A stretch of DNA of 5,782 bases from contig CAJPKC010000086.1 in assembly GCA_905370255.1 (NCBI GenBank), positions 1-5,782 on the forward strand, given 5' to 3'. The translations under genes and the position numbers were made by a program. This DNA is from Streptococcus oralis (GTDB lineage Bacteria > Bacillota > Bacilli > Lactobacillales > Streptococcaceae). Position 1 is the first letter of the stretch. Every line of letters begins with the position of its first letter. Below are positions 1 to 5,782 of the stretch, piece after piece. Under the pieces are notes generated by a model. That model was not told the DNA's origin and made no database searches. It worked only from the letters and a program-made list of their open reading frames with translations.

Positions 1-1098
1 CTTTCAAACCGTTGCTGGCGATAACCCCATAAAGAAGGATTGACATACCACCAAGTACGGCGCTAGGGATTGTAGAAATCAAAGCAGTGAATTTACCAAG
101 GAAGCTAAGGGCAATCGCGATAAAGGCAGCGTTACGGATAACTGAGACAGAAGCGATACGAGTCATACCGATCACCCCTGTATTTTCACCGTAGGTAGTA
201 TTAGCAGGACCACCAAGGAAGGCAGATACAGATGTTGCGATACCGTCACCAAGAAGGGTACGGTGAAGACCTGGTTCTTTCAAGAATTGACGGCCACAGA
301 TTTGGCTCAAGACCGTGTGGTCTCCAATGTGTTCTGAGATTGTTACGATCGCGATTGGTAAGATTGCGATTGTCTCTGGACCGAAGTAAAGGTTGTATTC
401 TTTGAAGGCACCACCTGTGCTAAATGGTAGGTAGAAGCCTGGAATTTCGAACCAGTTAGCTTGAAGAACAGGTGTGAAGTCTACTAGACCAAGAAAGACT
501 GCAAAGATATATCCACCGATAATGGCAAATAAGAAAGGAATGATACGAAGGAATCCTTTTCCTTTTGTATTGATAAAGGCAGCGATGAGGAAGGTAACCA
601 CAGCTACAAGAGCATTTTTCCAGTTGCCGTCAGCTACAAGACCAGCATTGGTTACGGCAGAACCAGCAAGCCCAAGACCGATAACGATAATCATAGGACC
701 AATAATGATTGGAGGCAAGAGTTTATCAATCCATTTTGTACCTGCGAAGCGAACACTTGCAGCAACAAGGACATAAACAAAACCAGTTAGGATAACCCCT
801 GTCTGAGCAGCAGATACATCACCCCCCATTTCTTTCATGGCAAGTGACATGGCTGTAATAAAGGCGAAAGAAGAACCAAGATAAACAGGAACTCTAAAAC
901 CTGTTGCAAACATATAGATGAGGGTACCAACCCCTGAAGCGAAGAGGGCAACAGATACAGGCATTCCCAAAATCAATGGTACCAAGATGGTGCACCAAAC
1001 ATGGCAAACACGTGCTGGAAACTGAGTAGGATTCCCTTACCAAAAGAAGGACGTTGGTCAACGTCGAGTAACAAATCAACAGTTGATTCTTGTTTCAT
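1..1098 (-). pseudogene. pyrP: Uracil permease (NCS2/NAT family), frameshifted near N-terminus and cut by the window edge
   Basis: Membrane symporter that imports uracil (NCS2 nucleobase transporters; also called uraA). ATG at 1098-1096 has GAGG at 1104-1107, 5 nt upstream. The opening frame reads 41 residues to a TGA at 973-975. One base is missing at about 990-991 (GCACC where GCAACC is needed). Restoring it joins the frame to an unbroken frame running off the left edge, giving 366 visible residues; by recall the family is about 425 long. Restored numbering shows the QH motif at 28-29, SEHIGD with Glu256, and GGPANTTYGEN with Glu305. These two glutamates are 49 apart, as are Glu241 and Glu290 of E. 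coli UraA. Many hydrophobic helices follow. The gene sits behind a PyrR-type attenuator, which supports a pyrimidine substrate. The break may be real or a sequencing error; family assignment is secure. Confidence 0.9.
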
Positions 1099-1121
1099 AA
1101 ATACCTCACTTTTTGGGCATC

Positions 1122-1156
1122 AAAAAAGAGCCCATTATTTTACAGCAATAGGCTCT
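1122..1156 (-). terminator. Intrinsic terminator of the pyrP attenuator
   Basis: On the minus strand a 10-bp stem, AGAGCCUAUU (1156-1147) with AAUGGGCUCU (1136-1127, one G-U pair), closes a 10-nt loop. It is followed by an uninterrupted run of U down to 1122. It lies 24 nt upstream of the permease ATG and downstream of the gene's own promoter, so it is a leader terminator rather than the end of another gene. Confidence 0.88.
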
Positions 1157-1257
1157 CAGAGTAGACTTCTTTAAAAAGAGGATTATCTCATTCTTAAAGA
1201 ATTTCATATATTTCTGCGTCTTCGTCACCTCACGGGATGACATTAAAAACCTTTGCT
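1144..1257 (-). promoter_or_regulatory. PyrR-responsive attenuator leader with antiterminator
   Basis: The leader RNA can fold in two exclusive ways. Antiterminator: AGCAAAGGUUUU (1257-1246) pairs with AGAGCCUAUUGCU (1156-1144) as two helices of 5 and 6 bp around a small internal loop, consuming the left arm of the terminator. Anti-antiterminator: the PyrR loop beginning at 1241 and its lower stem compete for the 3' side of the same upstream segment. A further 10-bp hairpin (1168-1200, arms UCUUUAAGAA and UUUUUAAAGA on the minus strand) stacks between them. In the Bacillus model, UMP-bound PyrR stabilises the anti-antiterminator so transcription stops when pyrimidines are plentiful. The pairings are read from the sequence by eye; the regulatory direction is inferred from the family. 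Confidence 0.72.
1224..1241 (-). promoter_or_regulatory. PyrR-binding loop
   Basis: The minus strand reads GUCAUCCCGUGAGGUGAC. GUCA pairs with UGAC, a single U bulges, CC pairs with GG, and the apical sequence CCGUGA fits the CNGNGA loop I recall as the PyrR recognition signature. Only about 16 nt separate it from the predicted transcription start, as expected for the first element of a pyr leader. Confidence 0.78.
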
Positions 1258-1263
1258 TGTGAT

Positions 1264-1292
1264 AGTATAGCAGAAAAAAATGATTTTGTAAA
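1264..1292 (-). promoter_or_regulatory. Sigma-70 promoter of pyrP
   Basis: TTTACA (-35, 1292-1287), a 17-bp spacer and TATACT (-10, 1269-1264) preceded by TGC, an extended -10. Transcription should start near 1257, leaving a leader of about 160 nt. The -35 box lies inside the palindromic core of the first 50-bp tandem repeat. Confidence 0.85.
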
Positions 1293-1430
1293 TCATTTTT
1301 TCCCGAGCCTTGAAATAAGAGAGCGAGGTTTGATTTTGTAAATCATTTTCTCTCAAGCCAAGAAACAAAAAAGTGAGGCATGATTTTGTAAATCATTTTT
1401 TCCCGAGCAAGGAAATAAAGACGCGAGGCT
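1281..1430. repeat. Three 50-bp tandem repeats with a palindromic core
   Basis: Units start at 1281, 1331 and 1381, exactly 50 bp apart. Each begins with the identical 19 bp TGATTTTGTAAATCATTTT, whose TGATTT and AAATCA arms flank TGT. In unit 1 the arms extend through flanking A and T runs to about 12 bp each. The remaining 31 bp is partly conserved (CCGAGC early, AAATAA in the middle, GCGAGG at the end in units 1 and 3) and more diverged in unit 2. A stub of a fourth unit (GATTTT) starts at 1431. The array fills the gap after rsmG and abuts the pyrP promoter. I do not recognise it as BOX, RUP or SPRITE. Confidence 0.85.
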
Positions 1431-1458
1431 GATTTTTTAGGTATCTTTTTAAAAATGC

Positions 1459-2172
1459 TTAAAGTGGTCGTTTGTTGGGCATGCCAGCCTTACGTGGATA
1501 TTTGTTTGGAGTTTCCTTTTTCTTTTCAACAATGGTGATGTAGCGAGGGTCTCCATTTGGAAGTGTATAGCTAAGGTTGTCTTCGACCTTGCTAAAGAGA
1601 AGGTTGAGGGCATTCTTGGCTTCTGTCAATTCCTCTGGTGCATTACTGGCCTTAAGTGCCAAAAGTTTTCCTCCTACCTTTAGATAAGGAATCGTTAATT
1701 CAGACAAGACCTGCATGCGAGCAACTGCACGAGCTGTCACAATGTCGAATTGGGCACGGAAATTCTTCTCTTGAGCAAAATCTTCTGCGCGCCCATGATA
1801 GAAATGAACACCTTCTAGATTAAGCTCTTCAGCTAAAAGCTGAAGAAAGTTAATGCGCTTATTGAGTGAATCAATGATGGTCACATCTAGCTGAGGGTAG
1901 AGAATCTTCATAGGAAGACTTGGGAATCCTGCACCAGCGCCAATATCAAGTAACTTAATTTCTTGGTTTTCTATCAACCCTTGTAGGATAGGAGCGATGG
2001 AATCATAAAAGTGTTTAAGATAAACTTCTTCCTTTTCAGTAATTGCAGTCAGGTTGATTTTTTGGTTCCACTCGACTAAGAGTTCGAAATAGCGCTCAAA
2101 TTGTGCTTTTTGCTGGTCAGTAAGATTAATATTCTGTTCAGCAAGTAGTGTGTAAAAAGTTTCTGGTTTCAT
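1459..2172 (-). CDS. rsmG: 16S rRNA (guanine-527-N7) methyltransferase RsmG
   Basis: SAM-dependent enzyme that methylates N7 of G527 in the 530 loop of 16S rRNA (also called GidB); loss is known to give low-level streptomycin resistance. The 237-residue product is full length. Visible: NLTAI (40-44), KHFYDS (53-58), the SAM-binding [15 protein letters not shown] (74-88), an acidic end of the next strand at ID (100-101), GRAED (127-131), ARAVA (147-151), and the family C-terminal signature [11 protein letters not shown] (224-234). I chose ATG 2172-2170 because AGAAGGA (2186-2180) sits 7 nt upstream. An in-frame ATG at 2196 has no ribosome site and lies upstream of the predicted transcript start. 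It is divergent from lemA, and downstream lies only the tandem repeat array. Confidence 0.96.
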
Positions 2173-2199
2173 AGTTATATCCTTCTTGTATATCATCTT

Positions 2200-2208
2200 A
2201 TTTTACCA
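2200..2208 (-). promoter_or_regulatory. Extended -10 promoter of rsmG
   Basis: The minus strand reads TGGTAAAAT, an extended -10 (TGn plus TAAAAT) with no good -35 at 17 bp. Predicted start is near 2193, giving a leader of about 20 nt that contains the ribosome site. It lies back to back with the lemA promoter; the two -10 boxes are 22 bp apart. Confidence 0.6.
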
Positions 2209-2224
2209 CAAAAACATGGAAATT

Positions 2225-2233
2225 TGATATACT
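2225..2233 (+). promoter_or_regulatory. Extended -10 promoter of the lemA-htpX operon
   Basis: TGATATACT is an extended -10 (TGn plus TATACT). A weak -35 candidate, TTACCA at 2203-2208, is spaced at 19 bp. Transcription should start near 2240, about 25 nt before the lemA start. Confidence 0.62.
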
Positions 2234-2263
2234 TGTACTAATCAAAAGGCAGAAAGGAGCTTT

Positions 2264-2827
2264 ATGATGAATTGGATTTTTTATGGACTTCTTGCTCTAA
2301 TTATTATCTTGGTAATTGACTGCTATAATAAATTGGTGAAAAATCGTATGCAGACCAAGGAAGCTTGGAGTCAGATTGATGTTCAGTTGAAGCGTCGAAA
2401 TGATCTCTTACCAAACTTAATTGAAACAGTAAAAGGTTACGCTAAATACGAAAGTTCTACTCTAGAAAAGGTGACTGAACTCCGTAGACAAGTAGCTGCA
2501 GCAACTACACCTGCAGAAGCCATGAAAGCTAGTGATGCACTGACTCGTCAGGTATCTGGTATTTTTGCGGTTGCAGAGAATTATCCTGACTTGAAGGCTA
2601 GTAGCAATTTTGCTCACTTACAAGAAGAACTGACTAACACAGAAAATAAAATTTCTTATTCACGTCAGCTCTATAATAGTGTCGTTAGCAACTACAATGT
2701 TAAATTAGAAACTTTCCCAAGTAATCTGGTTGCGGCTATATTTGGCTTCAAGGCAGCGGATTTCCTTCAAACTCCAGAAGAAGAAAAGGCTGTGCCTAGA
2801 GTTGATTTTAGTGGTTTAGGTGACTAA
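2264..2827 (+). CDS. lemA: LemA family membrane protein
   Basis: LemA proteins have one N-terminal membrane helix and a helical bundle on the other side; their biochemical role is not established, although lemA often stands next to a gene for the protease HtpX. Here a hydrophobic segment (about residues 4-20) is followed by the family motif [16 protein letters not shown] (44-59), long amphipathic helices, and the conserved C-terminal stretch around [11 protein letters not shown]. Length (187, or 186 residues) is normal. Two ATG codons are adjacent: AAAGGAG at 2253-2259 is 4 nt from the first and 7 nt from the second, so translation may start at 2267. It is the first gene of a two-gene unit with htpX, with 1 nt between them. 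It may act as a partner or adaptor of HtpX, which is inference from synteny only. Confidence 0.93.
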
Positions 2828-2828
2828 G

Positions 2829-3728
2829 ATGCTGTACAAACAAATTGCTAGTAATAAACGTAAAACTTGGATTCTTTTAATTGTCTTCTTTCTTTTGCTA
2901 GCCTTGGTTGGTTATGCTGTTGGTTTTCTGTTCATGAACTCAGGTATCTGGGGCGTGACTGTAGCTATGATTATCGGTTTCATCTATGCCTTGACCATGA
3001 TTTTTCAATCTACAGAGATTGTCATGAGCATGAATGGTGCGCGTGAGGTTGATAGAAACGAAGAACCTGTTCTCTATCATGTTGTCGAGGATATGGCAAT
3101 GGTGGCGCAGATTCCTATGCCACGAGTTTATGTAATTGATGACCCGGGTTTGAATGCCTTCGCCACCGGTTCGAATCCTCAAAATGCTGCTGTTGCTGCT
3201 ACGTCAGGACTTTTAGAGATCATGAATCGTGAGGAGTTAGAAGCTGTAATCGGGCATGAAGTTAGTCATATTCGCAACTTAGATATTCGAATCTCTACCA
3301 TTGCTGTTGCTCTTGCCAGTGCCATCACCCTTTTATCGAGTATGGCTGGTCGTATGATGTGGTGGGGTGGAGCTAGTCGTAGTCGTAGAAGTAATGACCG
3401 TGATGGTGGAGGACTTGAAGTGATTATGTTAGTTGTTTCTCTCCTAGCCATCGTTCTAGCGCCTCTTGCAGCAACTTTGGTGCAGTTAGCTATCTCTCGC
3501 CAACGAGAATTTTTAGCGGATGCTTCAAGTGTGGAACTAACTCGTAATCCTCAGGGGATGATCAATGCTTTACAAAAATTAGACAATAGTCAACCTATGA
3601 GTCATCATGTAGATGATGCTAGTAGTGCCCTTTATATCAATGATCCTCAAAAACCAGGTTTCTTGAAAAAACTATTTTATACGCATCCACCTATTTCAGA
3701 GCGAATTGAACGTTTGAAACAAATGTAA
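2829..3728 (+). CDS. htpX: Membrane zinc metalloprotease HtpX
   Basis: M48-family protease that cleaves misfolded or surplus membrane proteins, with its active site in the cytoplasm. From ATG 2829 the product has 299 residues, the usual streptococcal length by recall. Membrane segments are near 14-33, 42-60, 154-174 and 198-222. HEVSH (143-147) gives the two histidine zinc ligands and the catalytic glutamate, and Glu227 in [10 protein letters not shown] is the third ligand. A C-terminal THPPISERI motif (285-293) is typical. A GTG at 2820 in the same frame is possible but overlaps the lemA end; AGGTGA (2818-2823), 5 nt before ATG 2829, favours the ATG. The 1-nt gap to lemA suggests translational coupling. 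All catalytic residues are present. Confidence 0.95.
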
Positions 3729-3730
3729 AA

Positions 3731-3760
3731 AAACATCCAGAGAACTTTCTCTGGATGTTT
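3731..3760. terminator. Bidirectional terminator between htpX and the ABC-F gene
   Basis: AAACATCCAGAGA (3731-3743) and TCTCTGGATGTTT (3748-3760) form a perfect 13-bp stem with a 4-nt loop. On the plus strand it ends in a T-rich tract for htpX. On the minus strand it ends in a seven-T run, serving the convergent ABC-F gene whose stop codon is at 3773. Confidence 0.93.
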
Positions 3761-3772
3761 TATTTCCAAAAG

Positions 3773-4579
3773 TTAAAGATCTTGTAAATCAACTACTTCT
3801 AAACCATGCTCTGTCAGACTATAGATACTCGTACAGACTTCTTTTAAGAAACGTCGATCATGCGAAACAGTGACAAGACCACCAGAATAATTGGCAAAGA
3901 GTTTTCTGATTTCGGGTTGAGAAGTTGGAGAAAAGTTTCGTGTGGGTTCATCCAGAAGGAGAAAGTTTGGTTTTCGCAGAACTAAATTCAAAAGAAGGAG
4001 TTTACCTTGTTGACCGCCGGATAAGGAGCGGATTTGGTGGTGCATCTCTGGATAACTGAAATTGAGACTGGCTAGGAAGGATTGGATTTTCTGTAATTCC
4101 TCTTTATGTCCAGTTTGGCTGAGAAATTCTACTGGAGATAGATCCAATTGTAGTGTTTCTTGATAATCTTGTGGCATAAATCCAAGTGAAATCTCACTTT
4201 TGTCACTTAGTAGTTGTTGTAACTTGCCTAACAGAGTCGATTTGCCAACGCCATTGGGACCGATGATGCCGATTTTATCTTGACCACGGACAGTTAATTG
4301 TAACTCCTGAGCCAAAACACGCTCACCAATGGACAAAGTCTCATTTTCCAGTAGAACTAAGACTTTTGAAGTGGCTAATGGCTCTATATCTGAAAAGAAA
4401 AGTTGGATTTGTTCCTCTTCAAGTGGCTTTTGGGTCATGGACTGAGCTGCTTTTTCGTAACGTTTTTCTTGAGAAAGAACATTTTTCATCTTTTTAGCTA
4501 ATAGGCGACCGGCAGTACTGTCTTTGGTAGCTCGAAGTGCAGTTTCTACATTTTGCTTGACGCGACGATGCTTCTCCAT
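3773..4579 (-). CDS. C-terminal part of the split ABC-F protein (linker end and ABC2)
   Basis: 268 residues from the first ATG of this frame, although the frame stays open back to about 4720, and no ribosome site is evident at 4579. Residues 1-55 are the basic, helical linker of the ABC-F fold, the part that reaches the peptidyl-transferase centre in characterised members. ABC2 then shows Walker A GPNGVGKST (107-115), signature LSGGQ (186-190), Walker B FLLLDEP (206-212) with the catalytic Glu, and switch His240 in VSHD. The segment after Walker B is TRNFSP instead of the usual TNHLD. The fragment would lack ABC1 if made alone, so it is unlikely to be functional. Confidence 0.8.
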   Translation of the reverse strand: MEKHRRVKQNVETALRATKDSTAGRLLAKKMKNVLSQEKRYEKAAQSMTQKPLEEEQIQLFFSDIEPLATSKVLVLLENETLSIGERVLAQELQLTVRGQDKIGIIGPNGVGKSTLLGKLQQLLSDKSEISLGFMPQDYQETLQLDLSPVEFLSQTGHKEELQKIQSFLASLNFSYPEMHHQIRSLSGGQQGKLLLLNLVLRKPNFLLLDEPTRNFSPTSQPEIRKLFANYSGGLVTVSHDRRFLKEVCTSIYSLTEHGLEVVDLQDL

Positions 4580-4680
4580 GGTTTTGTCATAGGCTCTCTG
4601 GTCGTTAGCAGCTTGCTGGCTTTGTCTGGCAAAATTAGCCTTTCTCTGGTCACTATAGCTATCGTAGTCTAAATGCTCTA

Positions 4681-5298
4681 CTAGCGTTTCCGCTTCCTTT
4701 CGATGCTTGACCAGTCGTAATGGATAATGGTGTCTGCCGTTTGAGAGAGAAAATCTTCATCATGAGAAATGAAAATAACGGTTTGCCTCATCTTTTGAAT
4801 CTGTTTTTTTAGCCAATCAACCATCTCTATATCCAGGTCATTTGAAGGTTCATCTAAAAATAAAATCTCAAAGGGTTTGGCAAATTCATGGATGAGCTGA
4901 ATTTTCAAAGCTTCACCACCCGAGAGACTACTAATTTCTTGATCACTTGAAAAACGACTGCTGTCAAAGTGTAATTCCTCAGCCAAGCGATAGAGGATGG
5001 TGTAGTCTAAATCAGCAGAATCCAAAAAGAAGTAGTCCTGTAGAGATTTTTTCTTCAGTTCTTCAGGGAGATGTTGGGGAATGTAGGCCAGGGACTGAAG
5101 GTCAGATTGGATTTCGCCCCTGATAGTGAAATCAGCTAATCTTTCTCCCATTAAAGTTCGAAGTAAGGTTGATTTTCCATTTCCTTCTTCGCCTATAATA
5201 GCGACCTTTTCTCCGTCTTGGATGTTAATGTTTAAATCGGAAACAAGGTCTCTTAAATCTTTGTTTTGTGTGATGGTCAGATGATTGATTTTTATCAT
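4681..5298 (-). CDS. N-terminal part of the split ABC-F protein (ABC1)
   Basis: 205 residues from ATG 5298; the last 12 (after His193) are out-of-frame sequence ending at TAG 4681-4683. ABC1 shows Walker A GEEGNGKST (36-44, with EE where PN is common), signature LSGGE (125-129), Walker B ILFLDEP (145-151), D-loop SNDLD (152-156) and the switch His179 in ISHDEDFL. An upstream in-frame ATG at 5331 was not chosen because it has no ribosome site and almost abuts the U-tract of the leader terminator. Confidence 0.8.
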   Translation of the reverse strand: MIKINHLTITQNKDLRDLVSDLNINIQDGEKVAIIGEEGNGKSTLLRTLMGERLADFTIRGEIQSDLQSLAYIPQHLPEELKKKSLQDYFFLDSADLDYTILYRLAEELHFDSSRFSSDQEISSLSGGEALKIQLIHEFAKPFEILFLDEPSNDLDIEMVDWLKKQIQKMRQTVIFISHDEDFLSQTADTIIHYDWSSIERKRKR

Positions 5299-5334
5299 AT
5301 TATTGCCCTTTCTAGAATGTCCATATTGCATAAC

Positions 5335-5362
5335 AAAAAGCTCTACTTTACCTAGTAGAGCT
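5335..5362 (-). terminator. Leader terminator (T2) just upstream of the ABC-F gene
   Basis: On the minus strand AGCUCUACU (5362-5354) and AGUAGAGCU (5347-5339) form a perfect 9-bp stem with a 6-nt loop, followed by UUUUGUU. It lies after the gene's own promoter and ends about 36 nt before the ATG, so it acts on the leader transcript as an attenuator. Confidence 0.88.
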
Positions 5363-5375
5363 AATCGTTTATGTC

Positions 5376-5419
5376 AAAAAAACTCTTTTAAAAGGGCTGA
5401 AAATCCAGCAGAAAAAGAG
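5376..5419 (-). terminator. Possible second leader terminator (T1)
   Basis: On the minus strand CUCUUUU (5419-5413) can pair with AAAAGAG (5389-5383), enclosing a small GCUG/CAGC helix (5409-5406 with 5399-5396), followed by seven U (5382-5376). A second CUCUUUU at 5433-5427 is an alternative left arm. The outer stem is weak and A/U-rich, so activity is uncertain. Confidence 0.45.
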
Positions 5420-5442
5420 CACACAAAAAAGAGACAGAAACA

Positions 5443-5477
5443 AGATCTACTAAATAAAGGTTCTTTATTTGATAGAC
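5443..5477 (-). promoter_or_regulatory. Switch hairpin and antiterminator strand in the ABC-F leader
   Basis: AAAUAAAG (5470-5463) and CUUUAUUU (5459-5452) form 8 perfect pairs around a 3-nt loop. After one mismatch GUCUAU (5477-5472) pairs with GUAGAU (5450-5445), 6 pairs including two G-U. The 3' arm includes AGUAGAUCU (5451-5443), which can instead pair with 8 of 9 bases of the T2 left arm AGCUCUACU (5362-5354). The two pairings exclude each other. The 5' arm starts immediately after the stop codon of the upstream ORF, within reach of a stalled ribosome. Confidence 0.6.
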
Positions 5478-5489
5478 TTAGTTGTTCAT
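5478..5489 (-). CDS. Three-codon upstream ORF (Met-Asn-Asn) in the ABC-F leader
   Basis: ATG AAC AAC TAA, with a strong GGAGG (5504-5500) 10 nt upstream and a further GGGAG closer in. It is the only ATG between the predicted transcript start (about 5514) and the T2 terminator. Its position, in front of a hairpin that competes with a terminator, fits a sensor peptide whose translation state controls readthrough into the ABC-F gene. Very short leader ORFs are known before antibiotic-inducible ABC-F genes. Translation itself is not shown by sequence. Confidence 0.55.
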   Translation of the reverse strand: MNN

Positions 5490-5520
5490 GTCTCCCTTAC
5501 CTCCGAGTATTGTTGCAATC

Positions 5521-5549
5521 ATCATACTCTTTTTGAGAATATTTGTCAA
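5521..5549 (-). promoter_or_regulatory. Sigma-70 promoter of the ABC-F leader
   Basis: TTGACA (5549-5544), a 17-bp spacer and TATGAT (5526-5521): a perfect -35 with a near-consensus -10. The predicted start near 5514 gives an untranslated leader of about 215 nt before the ABC-F ATG, unusually long for this genome type and occupied by the attenuator elements listed here. Confidence 0.88.
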
Positions 5550-5574
5550 GGTTTAGCTAGAAAAACCACTATTT

Positions 5575-5782
5575 TTAAAAACCAAAAACAGGTCCATAAA
5601 GTGTCAAAACGTGTTTGACTTGATCGTAGTGGAATTTGTCATAGTTTCGCCAAGCTGTGCGAGCTTCTTCATTGAGTTTAAGGGTGCCAAGTCCAATCAA
5701 GAGACTGGTAAGTTGGTAAAATTTCTCCAGATCAATTAAGATAGAGTTATCTAGTTTCTCTGTCTTTTTAAGTTGTTTGAGT
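5575..5782 (-). CDS. Hypothetical protein, C-terminal 68 residues only
   Basis: An open frame enters from the right edge and ends at TAA 5577-5575. The visible part is largely helical in character, with a lysine-rich start, a hydrophobic FYQLTSLLIGLGTL segment, an aromatic stretch (AWRNYDKFHYDQ) and the ending LYGPVFGF. Codon use looks like the neighbours, so it is probably a real gene on the same strand as the ABC-F gene. I do not recognise the family. Its size and helical pattern recall small bacteriocin-immunity-type bundles, but no signature supports that. No convincing terminator follows it before the ABC-F promoter. Confidence 0.7.
   Translation of the reverse strand, partial: LKQLKKTEKLDNSILIDLEKFYQLTSLLIGLGTLKLNEEARTAWRNYDKFHYDQVKHVLTLYGPVFGF

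Follow-up and report, generated by a model that had tools for sequence, protein, structure and literature searches.

Introduction

ABC-F ATPases are a class of proteins that act on ribosomes. The closest described relatives of the element considered here are leaders of ABC-F genes that carry very short upstream open reading frames (uORFs). In Bacillus subtilis, the vmlR leader is described as comprising a free Shine-Dalgarno (SD) sequence, a three-codon uORF (MIN) within an anti-antiterminator stem-loop (SL), an antiterminator, and a terminator before the ABC-F gene (PMC9226507, Takada 2022). According to that account, initiation at the uORF is required for induction by lincomycin; MDN and MDK are also functional as uORFs, and MRK performs less well than MIN. 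Here we analyze a leader of comparable design in Streptococcus oralis (GenBank assembly GCA_905370255.1, contig CAJPKC010000086.1, positions 1 to 5,782 of the forward strand; we refer to this whole stretch of 5,782 nucleotides [nt] as the window). It lies on the minus strand before an ABC-F gene, and we consider it highly probable that it is a cis-acting, ribosome-mediated transcription attenuator of that gene. A first-pass annotation of the window, made from its letters alone, had proposed such an attenuator, a reading that is supported by conservation and by competing pairings and that largely holds.

Further short uORFs before ABC-F genes, namely MR[I/M] for cplR, MK[L/Q] for vmlR2 and MAGN for lsaA, are given by authors overlapping with those of the vmlR study, who call the identity of the uORF crucial (PMC10201436, Obana 2023); the main text of that paper does not contain the word Streptococcus. 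The lmo0919/vgaL leader (rli53) of Listeria is described as conferring lincomycin-dependent antitermination on an ABC-F gene with the help of a uORF (Dar 2016 as cited in PMC11550727 and PMC5418344), in a study that is also said to have used oral-microbiome Term-seq (as cited in PMC5418344). Within streptococci, the msrD leader of mef/mel elements is reported to attenuate transcription of an ABC-F gene through the peptide MYLIFM, which senses cladinose macrolides and in which L3 and I4 are critical (PMC10314930); mef/mel are described as carried by mobile elements (PMC4335068).

The streptococcal leader has the parts of vmlR in the same order, a likeness of architecture rather than of compared leader sequences: a short uORF with its own SD, placed in the 5' arm of an anti-antiterminator, and an intrinsic terminator before the gene. 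Some streptococcal leaders carry MIN, the uORF of vmlR itself, or MDN, one of its working variants. As far as the published description of vmlR goes, it differs in having a pause hairpin of its own (SL-2) and a hairpin that sequesters an SD (SL-4), whereas the streptococcal antiterminator also takes in the terminator loop and a U-run follows the first hairpin; moreover, a resistance role is only putative for the streptococcal protein. The cplR, vmlR2 and lsaA leaders likewise join very short uORFs to ABC-F genes, in other genera, and cplR, unlike the streptococcal leader, is reported also to hide the gene's own SD in the terminator (PMC10201436). The lmo0919/vgaL leader shares the ABC-F gene and the uORF when compared by its description rather than its sequence, and the msrD leader shares the host genus and the kind of gene but uses a six-codon peptide and is borne by mobile elements.

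Architecture of the Leader

In the window, all parts lie on the minus strand. A sigma-70-type promoter, TTGACA-17-TATGAT (5521..5549; TTGACA at 5549-5544, TATGAT at 5526-5521; 11 of 12 consensus matches), is followed by the SD region of the uORF, GGAGGUAAGGGAGAC (5490..5504), by the uORF itself, ATGAACAACTAA (ATG AAC AAC TAA, Met-Asn-Asn-stop; 5478..5489), by a hairpin that we call SL1, and by an intrinsic terminator, T2, before the gene (5335..5362; AGCUCUACUAGGUAAAGUAGAGCU at 5362-5339 with a U-tract to 5335; -12.3 kcal/mol). The promoter, the strong ribosome site, the uORF, the hairpin and T2 with its U-tract are all where the first-pass annotation had placed them. SL1, the presumed anti-antiterminator, is larger than had been drawn. 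The annotation had its 5' arm begin just after the uORF stop, which captures the upper half, a GUCUAUC...GUAGAU stem, but the hairpin in the minimum free energy (MFE) fold spans 5427..5498 (-24.5 kcal/mol), with a 5' arm that includes the uORF from its AUG onward: in the lower half AAGGGAGACA, the start-codon region and the uORF codons are paired with a U-rich 3' side. The 215 nt from 5514 to 5300 as a whole fold at -63.5 kcal/mol (z -4.45), a value equaled by none of 200 shuffles.

The probable start codon of the ABC-F gene, ATG at 5298, lies 36 nt beyond the T2 U-tract and is preceded by AGAAAGGG. In the MFE fold, the SD region of the ABC-F gene itself, AGAAAGGGC, seems to be paired with GCCCUUUU (the two segments lie at window 5313-5306 and about 5394-5387); this modeled pairing is a possible translational layer resembling SL-4 of vmlR.

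We propose that, when no drug is present, a ribosome would translate the three codons and depart, SL1 would close with its 3' arm occupied, T2 would form, and RNA polymerase would halt before the gene; in this and related species the polymerase might possibly stop already at a U-run after SL1. A ribosome arrested by a drug at the start codon or within the first codons would cover the 5' arm of SL1. The freed 3' arm could then pair with the emerging 5' arm and loop of T2, so that T2 would be blocked and the gene transcribed. By analogy with vmlR, vmlR2, cplR and lsaA, the inducers are probably drugs that act at or just after initiation, such as lincosamides, pleuromutilins and streptogramin A.

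Distribution of the Upstream Open Reading Frame

The first-pass annotation had made its reading depend on the uORF being conserved in relatives. A strict pattern, GGAGGTA-N5-11-ATG-AAN-AAN-TAA, which permits only Asn or Lys at codons 2 and 3, is present in 177 of 284 Streptococcus genomes, with 0 in the backward control. These 177 are pattern matches, only part of which were traced on to the ABC-F gene, and two genomes (G173 and G243) contain an additional match that seems unrelated. When 395 genomes were drawn from across the order, the 53 that matched all came from the Streptococcus set, and the pattern is absent from each of the 324 other Lactobacillales genomes scanned. A search with the N-terminal piece of the ABC-F protein yielded 77 loci, 66 of them streptococcal; three of these 66 do not extend far enough upstream, and the remaining 63 carry ATGAACAACTAA (60 loci), the synonymous ATGAATAACTAA (1) or ATGAAAAACTAA, which encodes MKN (2). 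The strict pattern provided 126 distinct leaders, 110 with MNN and 16 with MKN, and every one precedes a long frame whose first residues are like those of the ABC-F protein in the window (119 frames reach at least 400 codons within the extracted DNA).

Other parts accompany the uORF in these 126 leaders. The gap between GGAGGTA and ATG is 7-9 nt in all of them, given that the pattern itself required GGAGGTA and 5-11 nt; a promoter with at least 9 of 12 consensus matches lies no more than 60 nt upstream of the SD in 121, and TTTTT is located 35-75 nt past the uORF stop in 117, both counted without a shuffle control. A T2-like hairpin is present in 123. Among close relatives (L004, L023, L024, L034, L053, L055 and others), the distance from SD to gene ranges from about 200 to 400 nt, mostly through variation between SL1 and T2, which indicates that the switch tolerates insertions between its halves.

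Genomes that lack the strict pattern are informative about the peptide. A search of 60 among the 107 motif-negative Streptococcus genomes located the ABC-F gene in 44 (E of 1e-70 or better). Inspection by eye of the best 30 of these 44 loci revealed a three-codon uORF in 18: MIN (four), MRN (three), MNN with a TAG stop (two), MIH (two), MKN (two, one with a TTG start), MKI, MYI, and, started by GTG, MDN, MIK and MLN. Elsewhere among the 30 the uORF has five codons (five loci; MDNNK, MDSNK, MDNKK), seven (four; MYKKSIA), nine (one) or fourteen (one), and L219, at a short contig end, has none. A scripted count found an SD and exactly three codons in 17 of 29 resolved loci; 200 dinucleotide shuffles gave 0.6 such loci on average and never more than 3. 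The GTG, TTG and TAG substitutions keep the ORF, which argues for translation and not base pairing alone; the uORF is thus probably translated. The Met-Asn-Asn sensor of the first-pass annotation is kept in many genomes, yet its sequence is dispensable, since MKN, MIN, MRN, MIH, MKI, MYI and others occupy the same place.

These variants also bear on whether the two Asn codons sense a shortage of charged tRNA-Asn, as in an amino-acid attenuator. The prevalence of MNN (110 of the 126 distinct strict-pattern leaders, the other 16 being MKN) is what such a device would show, within a pattern that admits only Asn and Lys. However, MIH, MKI, MYI and MIK contain no Asn, so that the Asn codons are not conserved; the controlled gene is an ABC-F gene; an Rfam scan gave no amino-acid leader family at gathering score; and Asn at codon 3 could stem from pairing within SL1. 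We therefore regard attenuation by Asn starvation as very improbable and set it aside on the uORF variants. The frequent Asn at codon 3 may be due to SL1 pairing, and in our reading it does not prove that the peptide carries a signal. What counts in the uORF appears to be chiefly its shortness and position.

If the residues matter so little, nearly any block near the start codon should work, and the leader could be a general sensor of initiation or of the state of translation that responds to any slowing at the uORF and is not tuned to antibiotics. The frequent restriction of the uORF to three codons fits this idea, as does a reported involvement of (p)ppGpp in vmlR induction (PMC9226507). Against this, the controlled gene is an ABC-F gene, and the nearest analogues are described as responding to the drugs that their product counteracts (PMC9226507, PMC10201436). 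We judge a general sensor unlikely and favor the drug-responsive attenuator.

Outside Streptococcus, 9 of 80 other Lactobacillales searched have an ABC-F homologue, and by eye, with some loose SD spacing, eight of the nine have other very short ORFs upstream, including MYTI or MDTI in L239-L244, MKL in L245 and MRI in L246. The latter two agree with the consensus peptides described for VmlR2 and CplR (PMC10201436). Also by eye, seven loci (L176, L224, L226, L227, L229, L231 and L238) have an extra ORF of about 45-60 codons, ending ...HNxGNR, between T2 and the ABC-F gene; it is possible that this encodes a co-regulated small protein.

Competing Pairings and Their Conservation

The first-pass annotation had noticed that 8 of 9 bases in the 3' arm of SL1 match the left arm of T2. 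The match is real and is only part of a 17-nt antiterminator strand, CUUUAUUUAGUAGAUCU (5443..5459), in which 16 of 17 positions pair with AGCUCUACUAGGUAAAG of T2, including two G-U pairs and leaving one mismatch. This strand, kept across 79 distinct leaders of the same type, faces the 5' arm, the loop and the first bases of the 3' arm of T2, and the isolated antiterminator helix is computed at -15.4 kcal/mol versus -12.3 for T2. MFE folds were computed for 24 representatives: all of them pair the end of the uORF with downstream sequence, and 18 also pair the AUG itself.

More generally, the apical half of T2 has its complement in the 3' side of SL1, and the segments involved differ between lineages: CUUUAUUUAGUAGA / UCUACUAGGUAAAG in the window, GAUAGA / UCUAUC in L128, CCAGUAGG / CCUACUGG in L131, UGACUUAUCA / UGAUAAGUCA in L174, ACUUUAUCAAG / CUUGAUAAAGU in L176 and CCUUAUCAAGU / ACUUGGUAAGG in L177. 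Over 13 sequence clusters (75% identity), we compared the native SL1-T2 pairing with pairings exchanged between lineages and with shuffles. Native duplexes have an energy of -11.6 versus -7.9 kcal/mol for swapped ones (median z against shuffles -2.0), and in a longer search region the ungapped complement is 24.7 versus 19.9 (Wilcoxon p 0.003); in that region the native value was reached by 0 of 300 shuffles in the window, 1 in L157 and 6 in L177. Native pairing thus beats swapped pairing over the 13 clusters, though not in each single lineage. By computation, then, the SL1-T2 pairing outlasts changes in its sequence, though it is weak in some lineages, and a conserved antiterminator is mutually exclusive with both SL1 and T2, as in vmlR.

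Covariation folding had been suggested as a check. For 79 distinct window-type leaders (from 104 of the 123; 19 longer or different leaders omitted), 16 of the 17 antiterminator positions were scored: 3 pairs show two-sided changes and 6 one-sided changes only. Of the 15 cells in which pairing is broken, 12 belong to the last pair. For SL1, RNAalifold on a plain MAFFT alignment returned a poor consensus (-6.1; 14 pairs, 2 with two-sided changes), and SL1 therefore rests on single-sequence folds and not on covariation.

Folding with a Ribosome on the Upstream Open Reading Frame

We imitated a ribosome stalled at the start codon by masking the corresponding nucleotides. At equilibrium with T2 complete, the mask lowers mean T2 formation from 0.95 to 0.44 in 123 leaders, and the antiterminator rises to 0.47. 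After these mixed equilibrium results, a snapshot fold ending at the T2 loop was introduced because attenuation is decided before T2 is complete. When leaders are folded only to the 5' arm and loop of T2, the mask increases pairing of the T2 arm to SL1 by more than 0.2 in 123 of 123, and to this extent the earlier claim that a uORF-bound ribosome frees the antiterminator and blocks T2 is borne out. The means go from 0.05 to 0.87 in 78 leaders of the window's group and from 0.06 to 0.75 in 45 others, and the window itself goes from 0.00 to 0.83. Twenty-three leaders taken from motif-negative genomes shift from 0.13 to 0.72 (shuffled T2 arms 0.34), and the 13 cluster representatives from 0.10 to 0.71 (shuffled T2 arms 0.36). 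This control comprised 12 shuffles per leader, and L157 was equaled by 4 of its 12. Termination at T2 probably also occurs in the cell.

The SpF43 Small RNA

The first-pass annotation knew of no streptococcal description of this leader. Part of it is in fact catalogued: the Rfam family RF02436, typed as an sRNA gene and named "Streptococcus sRNA SpF43", matches 5415..5514 on the minus strand with 109.6 bits (gathering 70). The first base of the match, 5514, lies 7 nt past the -10 hexamer, at the expected transcription start, and the match ends in a U-rich stretch directly after SL1 (5412..5432), a feature absent from the first-pass annotation and a candidate early terminator (T1) or pause site. 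With a threshold of E 0.1, the family is matched in 181 of the 284 Streptococcus genomes, and in 125 of them the score exceeds the cut-off. In Streptococcus pneumoniae, F43 is described as a Northern-verified 99-nt RNA that is encoded between SP1281 and SP1282 and drawn with the orientation of the two genes; of 15 deletion mutants tested in mice, that of F43 included, 8 were attenuated, and the F43 mutant was not one of them (PMC3395615). A 2025 table of conserved putative sRNAs lists F43 as M52, matched in 385 genomes (PMC12323649).

Because RF02436 covers the first ~100 nt of the leader, the SpF43 sRNA is best read as the leader's 5' part. On the simplest reading, F43 would be a short form of the SP_1282 leader whose 3' end is made after SL1 by termination, pausing or processing. 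The alternative is that SpF43 is a trans-acting small RNA that stands before an ABC-F gene by happenstance, as its detection as a discrete 99-nt RNA (PMC3395615) and its standing as a putative sRNA in the 2025 table would allow. Yet it runs in the direction of the ABC-F gene, and the SD, the tiny ORF, T2 and the SL1-T2 pairing are kept before that gene in many species; its catalogue neighbor F44, moreover, is reported to have been recognized already as a PyrR site (PMC12323649). A purely trans-acting SpF43 is in our view quite improbable, and an added trans role would be compatible with the evidence for the cis-acting attenuator.

We found no description of the leader as an attenuator in the literature searched, which covered neither supplementary files nor Dar 2016, where an earlier mention is possible. 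The terms '1282' and 'F43' are absent from the main text of Warrier 2018 (PMC6296669), 'SP1282', 'F43', 'uORF' and 'ABC-F' from PMC10942264, and 'F43' from PMC4960207. A riboswitch, a T-box or another known leader was set aside, as SpF43 is the only Rfam match over gathering at the leader; within the window the only other one is SpF44. Matches that fell short of gathering include Phe_leader over the ABC-F leader (24.8 bits with a gathering score of 55, E 0.74), ceN111 in the window, and, at 28.6 bits, SpF43 on the reverse strand, taken here as a mirror image of the hairpin.

The ABC-F Gene

In the window, the ABC-F gene comprises a first piece at 4681..5298 (minus strand), within a longer ORF (5331-4681) that relatives match to about residue 204, and a second piece at 3773..4579 in another frame of the same strand, carrying the second ATPase domain. 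In 64 of the 66 streptococcal relatives the longest frame has at least 505 codons, the exceptions being L022 (287) and L053 (470). A broken frame is what one might expect if the leader were a chance or decayed sequence with no function, an explanation that we find scarcely credible in the face of cross-species conservation and of the backward, swap and shuffle controls. The ABC-F gene (5331-3773) and a permease-like gene (1098-2), both on the minus strand, are apparently split between frames; two such genes in a window of 5.8 kb suggest sequencing errors as much as decay.

Judged by its sequence, the product is an ABC-F protein, with a resistance-factor role that is only putative. After the profile NF000355, 'ribosomal protection-like ABC-F', which scored best, three intact orthologues matched Sal, Vga and PRK15064 in varying order. 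Nearest by sequence among solved structures are YheS, 8buu (named ExpZ), which we take to be VmlR2, and 7p48 ('ABC-F type ribosomal protection protein').

Other Features of the Window

Upstream of the permease-like ORF, at 1121-1253 on the minus strand, the Rfam scan placed SpF44_sRNA (107.9 bits) over a match to the PyrR binding site that, at 48.2 bits, stays below its gathering score of 54; F44 is likewise called a PyrR site in PMC12323649, and SpF44 is thus a second 'sRNA' that is a leader. Positions 1280-1436, between this PyrR-type leader and a gene that by eye resembles rsmG, hold a tandem array with a period of 50 and 3.2 copies (consensus ATGATTTTGTAAATCATTTTTTCCCGAGCC...), every unit of which contains the small palindrome GATTTTGTAAATC.

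Weight of the Evidence

Several observations weigh against the attenuator or its details. The uORF overlaps SL1, so that its conservation within one group could be structural, and in 11 or 12 of the 30 motif-negative loci it is longer or missing. T2 fails the rule used in 3 of the 126 strict-pattern leaders (L130, L159 and L178, the last with a doubtful gene start) and in four of the 27 motif-negative leaders with a uORF (L216, L222, L228 and L234). In the swap test, the native duplex energy was matched by 67, 177, 190 and 153 of 500 shuffles in L140, L142, L157 and L177, as against 20 of 500 in the window, and these four lineages are indistinguishable from shuffles; in the longer region shuffles reached the native value 29, 47, 85, 23 and 178 times out of 300 in L127, L140, L142, L154 and L173. 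Only a handful of lineages supply the two-sided changes of the antiterminator, which occur in 2, 2 and 1 of the 79 rows, and the 17th antiterminator position, left unscored, never pairs. Once T2 is complete, masking lowers it in the window only from 0.97 to 0.76 or 0.67, and 35 of the 123 leaders hardly change, keeping T2 at 0.85 or above; since the mask barely lowers a complete T2 in many leaders, the model requires that the antiterminator form first. As regards the product, the three intact orthologues score 294.9-301.6 bits against NF000355, where the cut-off is 380, and hence fall outside the antibiotic-resistance (ARE) ABC-F proteins as delimited by the curated NCBIfam profile. We found no report of SP_1282 expression under drugs in the literature searched, supplementary files lying outside the search. 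Finally, the reported weakness of MRK in vmlR, together with the description of uORF sequence as crucial, speaks against a purely length-based sensor.

On the other side stand the parts themselves, their conservation, the mutually exclusive pairings and the fold switch of the incomplete leader when its uORF is covered, all of which emerge from the computations. We judge that the leader, which is widespread in the genus, belongs to the known class of ABC-F attenuators and is new as an attenuator.

Implications

A published small RNA and its Rfam family are hereby reassigned to a cis-acting switch, and the reassignment predicts a drug-inducible, ribosome-acting ABC-F gene in many Streptococcus species including S. 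pneumoniae. The natural series of three-codon uORFs in one setting (MNN, MKN, MIN, MRN, MIH, MKI, MYI, MDN and others) makes the distinction between sensing by sequence and sensing by position directly testable. We offer a broader hypothesis tentatively, as one that is quite possible and that we stop a little short of preferring: streptococci may widely keep an ABC-F gene under a mostly three-codon uORF that serves as a bare detector of initiation stalls, selected for length and place over peptide, in which one stalled ribosome would both open SL1, ending early termination, and free the antiterminator to block T2. SpF43 would then be the aborted product of this switch, and, in S. pneumoniae and related species, the SP_1282 family would be a drug-inducible ribosome protection factor.
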